Assembly: GCA_029982795.1 (NCBI GenBank)
Contig: JARRBY010000007.1
Span: 1 to 33,221 of the forward strand
Direction: 5' to 3'
DNA length: 33,221 bases
Origin: Patescibacteria group bacterium
Lineage (GTDB): Bacteria; Patescibacteriota; Patescibacteriia; Patescibacteriales; UBA12465
Within the stretch, counting starts at the first letter, position 1, and the number at the start of each line of letters is the position of its first letter. The position numbers and the translations under genes were made by a program. Below the pieces are notes generated by a model, which saw only the letters and a program-made list of their open reading frames with translations, was not told the origin of the DNA and made no database searches. Of the stretch, positions 11,527 to 19,121 are shown in pieces.

Positions 11527-14166
11527 TTATTTTTGACTAACAATTTCAACTTTATTTTTTTTATCAAGATTGATTTTAACTTTGGCTCCTTCATTAATTT
11601 TTCCTTCAATAATTTCTAGGGCTAGTTCATCGAGAATTAGATTTTGAATAATTCTTTTAAGTGGTCGAGCGCCATAGGTAATATCATATCCTTTTTCTGC
11701 CAACATCTTTTTTACCTTTGCTCCAATTTTTAAATTAATATTTTTATTAGCCAATCTTTTTTCAACTTTAATTAATTCTAAATCTACAATTTTTTCGAGA
11801 GCTTTAGGGGTCAAGCTTTGGAAGAGGACAATTTCGTCAATACGATTGATAAATTCCAGTTTAAAATTCTTTTTCAAAATACTATCTATTTTACTTTTCA
11901 TTTCTTCTCGTCTTATTTTTGAGTTTGGTTTTTCACCATCATCGGTGTTAAAGCCGATAGAATATTGTTTAATCACTTCATTTCCTAAGTTAGAAGTCAT
12001 GATAATGATAGTATTTTTGAAATTAACAATGCGCCCCTTGGAGTCTGTAAGGTGACCATCATCTAAAATCTGCAATAAAATGTTAAAGATATCGGGGTGA
12101 GCCTTTTCAATCTCATCAAACAAAACAACACTATAAGGTCGACGTCTGACTTTATCACTTAATTGTCCTCCCTCGTCATAACCGACATATCCGGGCGGAG
12201 AGCCAATTATTTTAGCGACTGAGTGTTTTTCCATAAATTCACTCATATCAAGACGAATTAAAGATTTTTCATCATTGAACATGAATTTGGCTAAAGCCTT
12301 AGCTAATTCAGTCTTCCCAACTCCAGTTGGACCAACGAAAAGAAAGGAACCAATTGGTTTTTTTTCTTCATTAATGCCCGCTCGAGAGCGACGAAGAGCA
12401 TTGGCCACCGCTTTTATCGCTTCTTCTTGTCCAACAACTTCACGGTTAAGAACTTCTTCAGCATTACTTAATTTTTTAATCTCATCTTGTAGCATTTTAT
12501 TAACGGGAATTCCTGTCCAACGAGCGACCACTTTAGCAATATCTTCTTCATCAACTTCTTCTTTTAATATACGTTGTCCTTTTTTTTGGATTTTTAAGAG
12601 TTCGGCTTGCAGATTATCTATCTTTTTTTCAAGTTCAGGAACTAGGCCGTATTTAATTTTTGCGACTTCATTTAAATCCGCTCCTTGTCTTTGGGCAATT
12701 TCCGCTTTAATTTTTAAATCTTCAATTTCTTTTTTTGATTTTCTGATATCAGAAATTATATTTTTTTCATTATTCCAGTGTAGTTCTATTTGGTTGGCTT
12801 TTTCTTTAAGTTTAGCCAATTCTTGATTTATAGCCTGAATTTTACTTGACTTCTTATTTTCACTAGTTGAAAGTCCGGCCTTATTTAATTCTAATTGTTT
12901 TATCTTTCGTTTTAATTGATCAAGTTCATCAGGCATAGAATCAATTTCCATGCGAAGTGAGGAAGTGGCTTCATCGATTAAATCAACGGCTTTATCAGGC
13001 AAGAAACGATCACTGATGTAGCGGCTTGATAGTTTGGCGGCGGCAATTACAGCGTTATCGGTAATATGAACACCGTGGTGGACTTCATATTTTTCTTTTA
13101 AACCGCGTAACATTGAGATGGTATCATCTAAACTAGGTTCAGCCACGTATATTGGTTGAAAACGTCGTTCCAAAGCAGAATCTTTTTCAATATATTTTTG
13201 ATATTCCTTAGTGGTAGTAGCACCAATAGTACGTAGTTCACCACGAGCTAAGGCTGGTTTTAACATATTGGAAGCATCCATTGAGCCTTCAGAAGCACCA
13301 GTTCCAATTAAGGTGTGGAGTTCATCGATAAAAATTATGAATTTATCATTAGATTTTACTTCTTTTAGAACTGCTTTGAGGCGATCTTCAAATTCACCTC
13401 GAAATTTTGCCCCCGCTAATAAAGATCCTAAATCAAGGGTAATTATTTCTTTGTTTTTTAAATTTTCGGGAACATCGCCGGAAATTATTCTTTGGGCTAA
13501 GCCTTCAACAATTGCTGTTTTTCCTGTTCCGGCTTCACCAATTAGAACAGGATTATTTTTGGTACGACGTAATAAAACCTGCATAATGCGTCTTATTTCT
13601 TGGTCACGACCAATTACAGGATCTAATTTTTCCTGTCTAGCCATTTCTGTTAAATTGGTGGTGTATTTTTCTAAAACACGGAATTTATTTTCGGGAAAAG
13701 GGTCATTAATTGTTTGCGAGCCTCTGAGATCTTTTAATATTTCCTTTACTTTTTCATATTCAACTTTAAAGGAAAGTAATATATCTTGAGCGGGACTAGG
13801 AACGCCAACAAGAGCAAGAAAAATATGTTCTGTTGAGATAAATTCATCATTCATGCCGTCAGCTTCTTTTTTTGCTCGTTCTAGAATAGTTGCTGTTTCA
13901 GCGGTTCCGGAAACTGCTTGGATGGGACCATCGTTTTTGTTGATTTTATCTTTGGGAAGACTGTTTAAAGCTTTAATAACTTGTTGTTCCATTTGTTCGG
14001 GGTCTATCTTTAGTTTCTCTAAAATTGGTTTTACTAAACCTTCACTTTGTTCTAAAAGAGCTAGGAAGATGTGTAAAGCTTCAATGTTGCCTTGACCATA
14101 ATCGGAGGCAATTATTTGTGAATTTATTATTACTTCTTGTGATTTATCGGTAAATTTATTAAACAT
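11527..14166 (-). CDS. clpB: ClpB-type AAA+ chaperone ATPase (with ClpC-like IGF loop)
   Basis: Double Clp_N, GEAGTGKT and GPTGVGKT Walker A, IIFIDELH and [11 protein letters not shown] Walker B, long coiled-coil M domain, LERRFQ and FINRID arginine-finger regions. Confidence 0.93.
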
Positions 14167-14190: not shown

Positions 14191-14217
14191 TTAGCAGTCT
14201 TTATATTAGAGTGCTAA
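14191..14217 (-). promoter_or_regulatory. CIRCE operator (HrcA site) upstream of clpB
   Basis: Plus strand TTAGCAGTC-N9-GAGTGCTAA versus consensus TTAGCACTC-N9-GAGTGCTAA: one mismatch in 18 arm positions. Confidence 0.88.
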
Positions 14218-14296: not shown

Positions 14297-14329
14297 AAAA
14301 AATCATCGGCTGGGAATGGATGATTTTTT
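14297..14329. terminator. Bidirectional terminator-like hairpin in the clpB / 14496 divergent region
   Basis: AAAAAATCATC-ggctgggaatg-GATGATTTTTT. Confidence 0.65.
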
Positions 14330-14495: not shown

Positions 14496-14876
14496 ATGTT
14501 TAAACATAATTTTTTGACTTACGGTAGCCAAATAGTTTTCAAAATTATCTCTGATATAGTTATTTTTCCGATTTGGTGGTACAGCTTAGGTTTGGTGGAA
14601 ATGATAAAAAAGGGGTGGCATTTTTTGCATCAACGAGAAAAGGCATTAGGTTTTTCTATTTGGTTAAAAAATATTTTTGTTCCCATGTATGGGCAATATG
14701 ATTGGGCCGGGAGAATTATTAGTTTTTTTGTGAGATTGGTTCAGGTTATTTTCCGGGGCCTTGTTCTTATTTTTTGGTTAATTTTATATGTAATAAGTAT
14801 TATATTGTGGCTTGCTGGGCCAATTTTTTTGTTTTTAGCCTTGTTTTTTCAATTAATATCTTTCTATGGAGTATAG
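14496..14876 (+). CDS. Small multi-pass membrane protein, 126 aa
   Basis: Several hydrophobic segments (FRGLVLIFWLILYVISIILWLAGPIFLFLALFFQLI); overlaps the next CDS by 11 nt. Confidence 0.7.
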   Translation: MFKHNFLTYGSQIVFKIISDIVIFPIWWYSLGLVEMIKKGWHFLHQREKALGFSIWLKNIFVPMYGQYDWAGRIISFFVRLVQVIFRGLVLIFWLILYVISIILWLAGPIFLFLALFFQLISFYGV

Positions 14877-17535
14877 TAAGCAAGCAAAATTAGAGTTTAG
14901 TAAAGATAGTGTAAGCAATAATCAAGGGGCTTGGTTTTTAGGGCGGTTTTTATATTGGCAAAAAACTATAAAGAAATCATTAATAGCACTTGATCGCACG
15001 AAACGACAGCTTGATAAAATTTTAGGTTTCTTTGCTTGGCTTGTTATTTTTTTTGGTTGGGCCGCTTTTTTCTTTTGGCTCTTTCTCAATTATGAGTATT
15101 TATTGAAAGATCCGGTGTCTATCCTTTTTTTCTGGACACAGGGAGATATTTTAATTTTTATTTTTTTGGTTTCTTTATGGTTTGATCTTTATTTAGTTTT
15201 TAAATATAGTCGTCGTCGACAAGAAATAAAAAAAATTAATTATAAATTTTTTAATAAAGAAAAATTAGAAAATAAACGTTATAATGTTGCCAAATCTTTA
15301 GACGAAGAGGTGCATTTAGTTTTAGAAGATGCTTTTTTGTTAGCTTCCAAAATCCCAACACAAGTGGACATTATTCATTTTTTTCGGGCTGCTTTAAAAA
15401 ATAGACAAGTACAAAGCTTGTTTATCAGATTAAATGTTGACGTGGAAAGATTGGTAAATATGATAGATAGGCAAATTATAAAGACGGCAACAGTAGAAAA
15501 CAAGAAAGAATTAACACCTCGATTGCAAGAAGCAATAATGGAAGCTTTTGTAACTTCTTTTTATGAACAAGAAAAAAGTGTCAATGTTTTAAACATTATT
15601 TATGCTTGTTTAGATAAGGATGAAATTTTAGCGGAAATTTTATATGAACTTGAAGTAGATAGCGATAAAGTATTAAATACTGTGGCGTGGTTTAAGGTGG
15701 ATAGACAGTTAAGAGAAAGATATCAAGATTATCGTCGTTTATCATTATTTAAACCAGGTTCGGGTATGAATCGTTCTTATACGGCGATTGCAACACCAAC
15801 ACTTGATCGTTTTTCTCATGATTTAACACTGAAAGCTAAGGCCGGACAATTTGATTTATGTGTTGGGAGACAAAAAGAGATAGAGGAAATTTTTGAAAAT
15901 TTTATTGGCGGTCATGCCGGTGTTTTATTAGTTGGTCCCCATGGTGTGGGTAAAAGCGCAATTATTGGCGGTTTGGCGCAGATGATGGTGGCGGAAAATG
16001 TCCCCAAGTTTATGAAAGATAAACGGTTGGTAGAAATTGATGTTTCTCGTATTGTTAGTGGAGTGAGTGCTAGTGGCGCGCAGGAGCGTTTACTTGCTTG
16101 TATTTCTGAAGCTAACCGATCAGGTAATATTATTCTCTATATTGATAATATTGAAAATTTAGCCGGAATTAGCGCCGGTGGTGATGAAAGTTTGGATTTA
16201 TCTGAAGTTTTGTCAGAGGCTATTACTCGGGGTCATATTTTATGTTTAGCGGCGGTAACTAATCAAAATTATTCTCTCTATATTGAAAATAAGGCGCTGG
16301 GAACCGCCTTTACCACGGTTGGTATTAATGAGCCGGATAAAAATTTAGCTATTCAAATTTTGGAAAGTAAGGTTGGCTTTTTTGAAGCAAAGTATGATGT
16401 TTACATTGTTTATAACGCTCTGGAAAAAGCGGTGGAATTATCTTCGCGCTATCTAAGAGATAAGTCTCTGCCGTTAAAAGCCATTAATTTATTAGAGAAA
16501 GCGGCGCAAATATCCGCCAAAAATAGTATTAATAATCCGGAAAAACCTTTTTGCACTCAGGAAGATGTTGCTTTGGCAATTGAAGCGGAAACAGGAATTC
16601 CGGCTGGTAAATTAAAAGAAGAAGAGGGGAGTAAGTTGCTTAATTTAGAAACGGAAATTCATCGTCGTTTGGTTGATCAAGAGGAAGCGGTTAAGGCGGT
16701 ATCAGCTAGTTTAAGACGAGCGCGAGCAGCTTTGAAAGATAGTAAGCGTCCAATTGCCAGTTTTTTATTTTTAGGGCCAACCGGAGTGGGAAAGACTGAA
16801 TTAGCTAAGGCCGTCTCGGACATATATTTTGGCAGTGAAGATTATATGGTTAGAGTTGATATGAGTGAATATCAATATGAAGATAGTGTGCGAAAGATGA
16901 TAGGAGATGTTGATGGTTCTTTGGGTTATTTAACAGAAGCGGTACGAAAAAAACCATTTTCTTTGATTTTACTTGATGAGGTTGAAAAAGCTGATGCTAA
17001 TATTTTAAATTTATTTTTACAATTATTAGATGATGGACGTTTAACTGATGGTCAGGGACGCACGATAAGTTTTTCGGAGTCTATTATTATTGCTACTTCT
17101 AATATTGGGGCTAAATTTATTCAAGATAGTATTAAAAATAAAAAAAGTGTTGATGAAATTAAACAAGAATTAATTGATAAGCATTTGCGGGAGAAAATGA
17201 GACCGGAGCTTATCAATCGTTTTGATGGCATTATTGTTTTTAAACCGCTAAGTGAACGAGATATCTTTAAAATTGCCACTTTAATGTTAAAGGGAATTAA
17301 AAGTAATTTAGAAAAAAAAGGGATTGGTCTTAAGGCTGATAAAGCGGGAGTGATGTTGCTCGCAAAGGAGGGCTATGATCCTAAATTTGGGGCGCGACCA
17401 ATGCGACGTTTGTTGCAAGAAAGGGTTGAGGATGAAATTGCTAATAAAATATTATCATCGGAATTAAAGCGACGAGATCAGGTTTTAATTGATAGTCGGG
17501 CAAATATTTTAGTAGAAAAGGCTAAGAAATTATAA
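14866..17535 (+). CDS. Membrane-anchored ClpA/B/C-like AAA+ ATPase with degenerate first AAA module
   Basis: Two N-terminal TM segments (ILGFFAWLVIFFGWAAFFFWLF; ILIFIFLVSLWFDLYLVF), Clp_N-like repeats, Walker A GPHGVGKS and GPTGVGKT, D2 Walker B LILLDEVEKAD, C-terminal GARPMRRLLQ. Confidence 0.88.
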   Translation: MEYSKQAKLEFSKDSVSNNQGAWFLGRFLYWQKTIKKSLIALDRTKRQLDKILGFFAWLVIFFGWAAFFFWLFLNYEYLLKDPVSILFFWTQGDILIFIFLVSLWFDLYLVFKYSRRRQEIKKINYKFFNKEKLENKRYNVAKSLDEEVHLVLEDAFLLASKIPTQVDIIHFFRAALKNRQVQSLFIRLNVDVERLVNMIDRQIIKTATVENKKELTPRLQEAIMEAFVTSFYEQEKSVNVLNIIYACLDKDEILAEILYELEVDSDKVLNTVAWFKVDRQLRERYQDYRRLSLFKPGSGMNRSYTAIATPTLDRFSHDLTLKAKAGQFDLCVGRQKEIEEIFENFIGGHAGVLLVGPHGVGKSAIIGGLAQMMVAENVPKFMKDKRLVEIDVSRIVSGVSASGAQERLLACISEANRSGNIILYIDNIENLAGISAGGDESLDLSEVLSEAITRGHILCLAAVTNQNYSLYIENKALGTAFTTVGINEPDKNLAIQILESKVGFFEAKYDVYIVYNALEKAVELSSRYLRDKSLPLKAINLLEKAAQISAKNSINNPEKPFCTQEDVALAIEAETGIPAGKLKEEEGSKLLNLETEIHRRLVDQEEAVKAVSASLRRARAALKDSKRPIASFLFLGPTGVGKTELAKAVSDIYFGSEDYMVRVDMSEYQYEDSVRKMIGDVDGSLGYLTEAVRKKPFSLILLDEVEKADANILNLFLQLLDDGRLTDGQGRTISFSESIIIATSNIGAKFIQDSIKNKKSVDEIKQELIDKHLREKMRPELINRFDGIIVFKPLSERDIFKIATLMLKGIKSNLEKKGIGLKADKAGVMLLAKEGYDPKFGARPMRRLLQERVEDEIANKILSSELKRRDQVLIDSRANILVEKAKKL

Positions 17536-17540
17536 AAAAT

Positions 17541-19121
17541 ATGATTGCTTATTTTTTTCCATTTTTAATTAGTTTTTCTCTGGCCATAATTTTTACTCTT
17601 TTGATAAAAAAAATTGCTCTTCGATTTTCTATTGTAGATAAACCCGGTCCGAGAAAAATACATAAAAAGGCAACTCCACTTTTAGGTGGAGTAGCAATTT
17701 TTTTAGCTTTTTTCTTAACCTTATTTATTTTTTCCAAGTCATTTTTAGCTGGCAATTTAGAGTGGCAGCACTTGCTTGGTTTTTTCTTTGGCGGTTTGAT
17801 TATTATTATTGGTGGCATATTGGATGATAAATATAATTTGGCGCCAAAATGGCAATTTATTTTTCCTTTGTTGGCAATTCTGGCAGTTATTATGGGGGGA
17901 GTGACAATTGAAAAAATTACTAATCCTTTAGGAGGATTAATATATTTACAAGATTATTTTTTATTGGGTCCTTTATTAATTTCGTTGTGGCTTTTAGGCA
18001 TGATGTATACTACTAAGTTGCTTGATGGGGTGGATGGTTTGGTAACCGGGGTTGGAGCTATTGGTAGTATTATTATCTTTTTATTTACTTTAACGACTAA
18101 TTATTATCAACCAGATATTGCTTTAGCCGCTTTGATTTTGGCCGCTGCCGCCTTAGGTTTTCTAATTTTTAATTTTCATCCCGCTAAAATCTTTTTAGGC
18201 GAAGGAGGCTCTTTATTTTTAGGTTATGCCTTGGGGGTTTTATCTATAATTTCCGGGAGCAAGATTGCCATCGCCTTATTAATTATGGGTATTCCGATTT
18301 TAGATGTTGCTTGGACTATAATTCGTCGTCTTTTAGTTGGCAAGAATCCATTTCGTTTTGCTGATAAAAAACATTTACATCACCGTTTATTGGCGTTGGG
18401 TCTTAATCAGCGACAAACGGTTTTTGTCTTTTATTCTTTGTCTTTAATATTTGGGGTAAGTGGTCTTTTTTTGCAAAGTCGAGGTAAACTTTTGGCTTTA
18501 GCTTTTTTGTTATTTTTAATGATAATAACGGTGTCTTTTTTTCATTATCTTGATTATACAAATGAAAAGAAAAAGCCTAAGTTATTACTTCATGTGTGTT
18601 GCGCTCCTTGTGCTTCTTATATAAGTTATAATTATTTAGTGCCGGCATATCGTTTGACTTGGTTTTTTTATAATCCTAATTTAACTTCTCTGGAGGAATA
18701 TAATAAGCGGTTATATTATGTGAAAAAAATGGCTAAAAAATTTCACATCCCTTTAGTGGTTGTTCCTTATGAGCATGAAAAGTGGCTTAAAAAAGTGGAA
18801 GGACATGAGATGGATCCGGAAAAAGGAGAGCGTTGTTTGATTTGTTATTTTGATCGTTTAGAAAAAACCGCCCAAACAGCACAGGCTGAAAAATTTGATT
18901 ATTTTAGTACTAGTTTATTATACAGTCCTTATAAAAATATAGAGGCGTTAAAAGAGATTGGAAAAAAGTTAGAAAAAAAATATCAGACTATTTTTTTAGA
19001 TAATGATTACAGTGCGGAAAATGCTTATCATAATTCTCAGGAATTTGCTAAAAGTCTGGGTATGTACAGACAGAAATTTTGTGGTTGTGAATTTTCAATT
19101 AGAAAAAATAAACATGATTAA
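17541..19121 (+). CDS. WecA/MraY-type polyprenyl-phosphate glycosyl-1-phosphate transferase fused to QueH-like domain
   Basis: N-terminus: GGILDDKYNL, LLDGVDGL, FLGEGGSLFLGY, ADKKHLHHRLL; C-terminus from about 18576: LLLHVCCAPCAS, GERCLICYFDRLEKTA, YRQKFCGCEFS (QueH). Confidence 0.88.
   Translation: MIAYFFPFLISFSLAIIFTLLIKKIALRFSIVDKPGPRKIHKKATPLLGGVAIFLAFFLTLFIFSKSFLAGNLEWQHLLGFFFGGLIIIIGGILDDKYNLAPKWQFIFPLLAILAVIMGGVTIEKITNPLGGLIYLQDYFLLGPLLISLWLLGMMYTTKLLDGVDGLVTGVGAIGSIIIFLFTLTTNYYQPDIALAALILAAAALGFLIFNFHPAKIFLGEGGSLFLGYALGVLSIISGSKIAIALLIMGIPILDVAWTIIRRLLVGKNPFRFADKKHLHHRLLALGLNQRQTVFVFYSLSLIFGVSGLFLQSRGKLLALAFLLFLMIITVSFFHYLDYTNEKKKPKLLLHVCCAPCASYISYNYLVPAYRLTWFFYNPNLTSLEEYNKRLYYVKKMAKKFHIPLVVVPYEHEKWLKKVEGHEMDPEKGERCLICYFDRLEKTAQTAQAEKFDYFSTSLLYSPYKNIEALKEIGKKLEKKYQTIFLDNDYSAENAYHNSQEFAKSLGMYRQKFCGCEFSIRKNKHD

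Follow-up and report, generated by a model that had tools for sequence, protein, structure and literature searches.

A ClpC-derived, membrane-anchored AAA+ ATPase without aromatic pore loops and its small membrane protein partner in Patescibacteria

Results

Two overlapping genes encode a small membrane protein and a Clp-like ATPase

The window analyzed here is a 33,221-nucleotide stretch of a Patescibacteria group genome of 668,587 bases (G000). It contains two open reading frames, of 126 and 889 amino acids, that share 11 nucleotides at the end of the first and the start of the second, as a preliminary description of the sequence had reported (Table 1). The pair is present as a single copy in this genome and is spread phylum-wide. 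Pfam assigns the domains AAA, AAA_lid_9, AAA_2, and ClpB_D2-small to the 889-amino-acid protein and detects no peptidase domain in it; a ClpP gene is present in the genome. The ATPase gene is followed by a frame in which a WecA/MraY-type glycosyltransferase is joined to QueH, an unusual fusion of unrelated enzymes that also occurs in one other locus (L204).

Table 1. Coordinates of the gene pair, its motifs, and the flanking genes in the window
Feature	Position	Strand	Basis
clpB (true clpB), divergent neighbor	11527-14166	-	
Small membrane protein (partner), 126 aa	14496..14876	+	ORF list, family searches, orthologues, alignments A2 and A3
Partner motif FPIWWYSLG, W28 nearly invariant	14565..14591	+	Alignments
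Partner core motif NIFVPMYGQYDWAGR...RLVQVIFR	14670..14756	+	Alignments
ClpC-derived membrane-anchored AAA+ ATPase, 889 aa	14866..17535	+	ORF list, Pfam, orthologue motifs, tree, model, fold search
Transmembrane hairpin, residues 51-115, then basic stretch KYSRRRQEIKK	15016..15210	+	Hydropathy; model helices 37-74 and 95-121
Clp_N-like helical domain, residues 141-295	15286..15750	+	ClpB alignment, model helices, TIGR02639 alignment from residue 148
D1 Walker A, intact, GPHGVGKSA	15934..15960	+	Motif alignment
D1 pore loop, KFRG lost, SGVSASGAQERL	16057..16092	+	Motif alignment, residue counts
D1 Walker B, ILYIDNIE, catalytic Glu to Asn428	16132..16155	+	Motif alignment
D1 arginine-finger stretch, KALGTAFT, both Arg lost	16291..16314	+	Motif alignment, residue counts
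D2 Walker A, intact, GPTGVGKTE	16774..16800	+	Motif alignment, residue counts
D2 pore loop, 5 residues shorter, GYVG Tyr lost, IGDVDGSLGYLTEAV	16900..16944	+	Motif alignment, residue counts
D2 Walker B, intact, LILLDEVEK	16963..16989	+	Motif alignment, residue counts
D2 arginine finger, intact, ELINRFD	17206..17226	+	Motif alignment, residue counts
D2 sensor 2, intact, FGARPMRR	17386..17409	+	Motif alignment, residue counts
WecA/MraY-type glycosyltransferase joined to QueH, downstream gene of the ATPase	17541..19121	+	Pfam

The region between the pair and clpB carries two further elements. A CIRCE-like element, TTAGCAGTC-N9-GAGTGCTAA (14191-14217), lies upstream of clpB, with a promoter-like match (TTGACA-17-TAAGAT) beside it; the element differs from the consensus by one mismatch and suggests HrcA-type control of clpB. 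As to a possible heat-shock operon shared with the pair, the element lies toward clpB, and the number of promoter-like matches between the genes does not exceed chance expectation. Between clpB and the pair there is also an AT-rich inverted repeat, AATCATC...GATGATT, followed by T (14301-14325); it is terminator-like by eye and was not called by the scan.

The ATPase has a membrane anchor and an N domain and lacks the M domain

Hydropathy identified two hydrophobic segments in the ATPase, at residues 51 to 76 and 92 to 115, in agreement with the two transmembrane helices claimed previously. The proposed Clp_N-like region fared less evenly: Pfam reports no Clp_N there, but the region aligns with the N domain of ClpB, and AlphaFold models it entirely as helices. 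Alignment with the window's own ClpB confirmed that the M domain is missing. An AlphaFold monomer of the ATPase reached a pLDDT of 79.7 and a pTM of 0.63, and Foldseek returned ClpC and ClpB as its best matches.

Many relatives of the ATPase carry an N-terminal zinc ribbon (CPxCxGxG...CxxCxGxG) that resembles the DnaJ type (L023, L025, L027-L032, L161, and L248:2768-4591). This ribbon is common in the family, and the genus of the window is without it.

D2 retains its ATPase residues, and the aromatic pore loops are lost

The motif changes in D1 that had been read by eye all held when the protein was aligned with the window's ClpB, and each recurs in 30 of 30 orthologues from the same order: the catalytic glutamate of Walker B is replaced by asparagine, both arginines of the finger stretch are gone, and so is the KFRG pore loop. 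In D2, the Walker A and B motifs and the NRFD finger are intact as described, likewise sensor 1 and the GAR sensor 2, and all five are unchanged across the 30 orthologues. The D2 pore loop is indeed shortened, being 5 residues shorter than that of the window's ClpB and devoid of the GYVG tyrosine; the orthologues share a loop shorter by about five residues and have no aromatic residue at the GYVG position. Because these changes are common to all 30 order-level orthologues, they are not due to chance.

We extended the residue counts, in a single MAFFT alignment, to 71 members of the family and 23 canonical Clp proteins. Seven ATPase residues of D2 (the Walker A Lys and Thr, the Walker B Asp and Glu, the sensor 1 Asn, the finger Arg, and the sensor 2 Arg) are present in 71 of 71 members. 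The GYVG tyrosine of D2, found in 23 of 23 canonical proteins, occurs in a single family member, and the D2 loop spans 13 to 27 residues in the family compared to a constant 26 in canonical Clp. Across the family no aromatic residue is conserved in this loop, and several members are without nearly all of it; intermediate forms read GYPG (L193), GFAG (L161), and GHLG (L156). One tyrosine, Y688, closes the shortened loop in every sequence of the order alignment, at a position that in canonical Clp corresponds to the start of the helix following the loop.

D1 motifs vary freely across the family. The D1 pore aromatic is found in 0 of 71 members, as is the second finger arginine (23 of 23 in canonical Clp), and the Walker B glutamate is kept in 30 of 71. 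Walker A of D1 decays to KR, KN, KK, or RN in many relatives, and the window copy still reads GPHGVGKS. The pore residues and D1 catalytic residues are therefore lost family-wide by this alignment, and not displaced. Between D2 sensor 1 and the NR finger there is no VGF/IGF-type loop for ClpP docking, a test that is not decisive alone, because VGF is also absent from some Patescibacterial ClpC proteins in the same comparison.

The small protein is conserved, adjacent to the ATPase, or fused to it

The 126-amino-acid protein returned nothing above the cut-off in Pfam, NCBIfam, PADLOC, or the PDB. Its conserved core takes the form PxYGxD..GR...R; among 39 copies, split or fused, P63 and R80 never vary and G72 hardly does. 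We rejected a relationship to DUF4873, which only 3 of the 39 members match and for which the window copy (E = 0.061) falls below the cut-off. A role in defense was likewise rejected: PADLOC matches are partial and confined to the AAA+ modules, with none to the small protein.

A partner profile (A2) matched 87 of 380 genomes, with many distant matches falling inside frames of ∼840 to 900 amino acids. When 20 of these distant matches were fetched, the small protein formed the N terminus of the ATPase in 13, and the two genes were adjacent in the other 7. With a wider profile (A3), 195 of 381 Patescibacteria genomes gave a match, so the predicted ATPase-partner system occurs in roughly half of the Patescibacteria (CPR bacteria) sampled. 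Named carriers of the gene pair include “Ca. Magasanikbacteria” (L068), a Saccharibacterium (L125/L242), and a Parcubacterium (L118/L243).

The weakest matches in the phylum had been picked by score and not by context, and they therefore provide a real test of the pairing. In 20 of 20 examined, the small gene immediately precedes a gene for a Clp-like protein of ∼790 to 920 amino acids; at one of these loci (L175) the ATPase is split into two frames, and at another (L188) the overlap of the two frames exceeds the automatic limit. Fusion of the small protein to the ATPase N terminus was seen in 24 proteins. The small protein had been put forward as a candidate partner, with linkage in relatives as the check, and this adjacency and fusion across the phylum support the proposal; that the pair is one conserved machine of Patescibacteria is well supported.

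Absence of the two components also tends to coincide. Among 20 Patescibacteria without a small-protein match, 18 are also without a family ATPase, nearly all having only canonical GYVG Clp proteins, and the remaining two (G065 and G044) have the family ATPase and the small domain, adjacent or fused, which the first search had missed. Among 47 genomes of other phyla, one matched marginally (G468, E = 6e-4) and had no Clp-like ATPase near the match; the three Patescibacteria within this control set all matched. Individual genomes depart from the pattern: in one (G031) the ATPase is present and no partner was detected, and in another (G027) neither was found. A third (G025) encodes a 607-amino-acid member (L248:2768-4591) that ends before D2. 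This protein keeps the zinc ribbon, membrane segments, and N domain, has a D1 that is broken including its Walker A, and adjoins a WecA-type gene, with the small protein on another contig. It may reflect a truncation or an assembly error, and may mean either decay or an ATPase-free function.

The family was not described in the open-access full texts that we searched, and we claim novelty only relative to those texts and the profile libraries searched.

The family forms one clade within ClpC and is under purifying selection

A quick maximum-likelihood tree (LG+G4) was built from the D1-D2 region, excluding the pore loop and M domain. A scan of genome contigs had yielded mostly canonical ClpC of other phyla, which served as outgroup and controls. 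All 71 members form one clade (SH-aLRT, 100) inside ClpC, nearest to Patescibacterial ClpC proteins from L180/L181 (support, 94), and fused and split members each cluster.

Nei-Gojobori counts against the nearest relative (91% identity) gave a dN/dS of ∼0.05 for the ATPase (dN, 0.052; dS, 1.09, which is near saturation) and of ∼0.11 for the partner (dN, 0.067; dS, 0.59). The family is under strong purifying selection.

An AlphaFold monomer of a natural fusion (L151) reached a pLDDT of 84.7 and a pTM of 0.76. Its small domain consists of a helix (6 to 38), a loop bearing the conserved motif, a long helix (57 to 103), and another helix (105 to 122). The membrane part is modeled as long helices in both the split and the fused protein.

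Gene neighborhoods point weakly to the envelope

Of the 29 loci of the order whose flanks are long enough, 26 have a WecA-type glycosyltransferase gene after the ATPase gene; clpB is divergently upstream in 13 of the loci. Fused genes often have a prfB-like gene beside them, and downstream of the fused ATPase in four loci (L192, L197, L198, and L199) ftsE- and ftsX-like genes come next; all of these names were given by eye. Neighbors thus differ between lineages, and they point weakly to the envelope.

Discussion

Substrate threading by aromatic pore loops is regarded as what defines an Hsp100 protein. The sequences compared here record a ClpC paralogue that gained a membrane anchor, shed both the M domain and the aromatic pore loops, and came to be linked with a small membrane protein through gene adjacency or fusion. 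The preliminary description had proposed a membrane-tethered Clp derivative that uses D2 hydrolysis for a noncanonical role, and the comparisons support this at the level of sequence. The intact D2 motifs suggest that D2 hydrolyzes ATP. Because the gripping residues are lost, we infer that the ATPase does not thread. By analogy with Torsins, it would instead remodel membrane complexes.

We envision that the ATPase forms a ring under the membrane, in which D1 would be mainly structural in the lineage of the window and D2 would hydrolyze ATP. With no gripping loops, conformational change in D2, or assembly and disassembly of the ring, could remodel membrane-bound protein complexes of the envelope. 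The small protein, positioned beside the ATPase N terminus in the bilayer, may serve as a membrane adaptor or activator. Such action would be Torsin-like without membership in the Torsin family. In the order of the window, the client might have to do with the WecA-type glycosyltransferase encoded alongside and with envelope glycan synthesis; this is the weakest step, because neighbors differ between lineages. To the proposal as one whole, a D2-powered, nonthreading remodeler of envelope membrane complexes acting with a small-protein partner, we give an even chance. A broader version would make the pair a bacterial equivalent, independently evolved and phylum-wide, of Torsin and its cofactors, serving Patescibacteria-specific envelope or host-attachment functions; it is more tentative, and we would sooner bet against it than for it.

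Some residual substrate grip is possible, through Y688 in the order or through the aromatics of the GYPG and GFAG loops elsewhere. The ATPase might be a threading unfoldase still, gripping with Y688 or with a flexible short loop, while the anchor only places it near membrane substrates. The invariance of Y688 within the order, those two loops, the ClpC-like fold, and the D2 engine all fit such an unfoldase, but no loop aromatic is kept family-wide, the loop varies from 13 to 27 residues and has nearly gone in several members, and the KFRG aromatic of D1 is missing in 71 of 71; we consider it unlikely. We would place at a similarly low level the idea of a membrane scaffold or nucleotide-gated platform, in which ATP binding by D2 holds the ring and hydrolysis only resets its assembly. 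D1 catalysis is dead in the window lineage, and G025 offers a natural D2-less member beside WecA, as a scaffold might allow, whereas the presence of the D2 Walker B glutamate and NR finger in 71 of 71 members argues for regular hydrolysis.

The presence of ClpP in the genome raises the prospect of a new AAA+ protease, formed by a membrane-bound unfoldase that docks to ClpP. The missing VGF/IGF-type loop, with the reservation given above, and the loss of the pore loops make this very improbable. Free variation of the D1 motifs and the G025 member without D2 could be taken as signs of a decaying, functionless ClpB/ClpC paralogue, but the dN/dS values, the phylum-invariant D2 motifs, and the conserved pairing largely refute decay, to which we attach next to no probability.

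Patescibacteria are among the largest groups of uncultured bacteria. What the nonthreading reading points to is a membrane-remodeling machine in this phylum that has gone unstudied. The clade, which retains the motor but not the grip and is linked to a membrane protein, offers a natural test of a Clp ring without threading. Protein families enriched in Patescibacteria are mostly poorly annotated and include many membrane proteins (PMC6744442), which makes a defined pair with clear tests useful. Genetics now exists for cultured Saccharibacteria (PMC10633639), and the conserved pair is a system to probe in them.

Among known systems, ClpC is nearest in both tree and fold (9a66 and 9rai), and the tree places the descent of the family within it. 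The two share a Clp_N-like domain, D1 and D2, and the small C-domain of D2. Unlike ClpC, the family has a membrane anchor and a nearly universal membrane partner and is without the M domain and aromatic pore loops, with D1 catalysis also lost in the lineage of the window. The two-ring Hsp100 architecture is shared with ClpB, whose M domain, a long coiled-coil, and pore loops are absent from the ATPase. The ATPase scores 534.9 bits against the ClpB profile TIGR03346, under its curated cut-off of 1232.1, and 441.1 bits against the ClpA profile TIGR02639, under its cut-off of 993.15. FtsH and other membrane AAA+ proteases likewise combine an N-terminal transmembrane hairpin with a cytoplasmic AAA+ ring, but they belong to a different AAA+ clade, and the ATPase has no detected peptidase domain.

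A parallel in action may be Torsin with its cofactors LAP1 and LULL1. TorsinA is a membrane-associated relative of Clp/HSP100 proteins that has no aromatic pore loops and acts with membrane cofactors (PMC5425593, PMC6646356). Torsin, however, has one AAA+ module, resides in the endoplasmic reticulum and nuclear envelope, and has its active site complemented by the cofactor. Because the Patescibacterial family combines two AAA+ modules with an intact D2 finger of its own, it is not a Torsin, and the analogy is one of action only.
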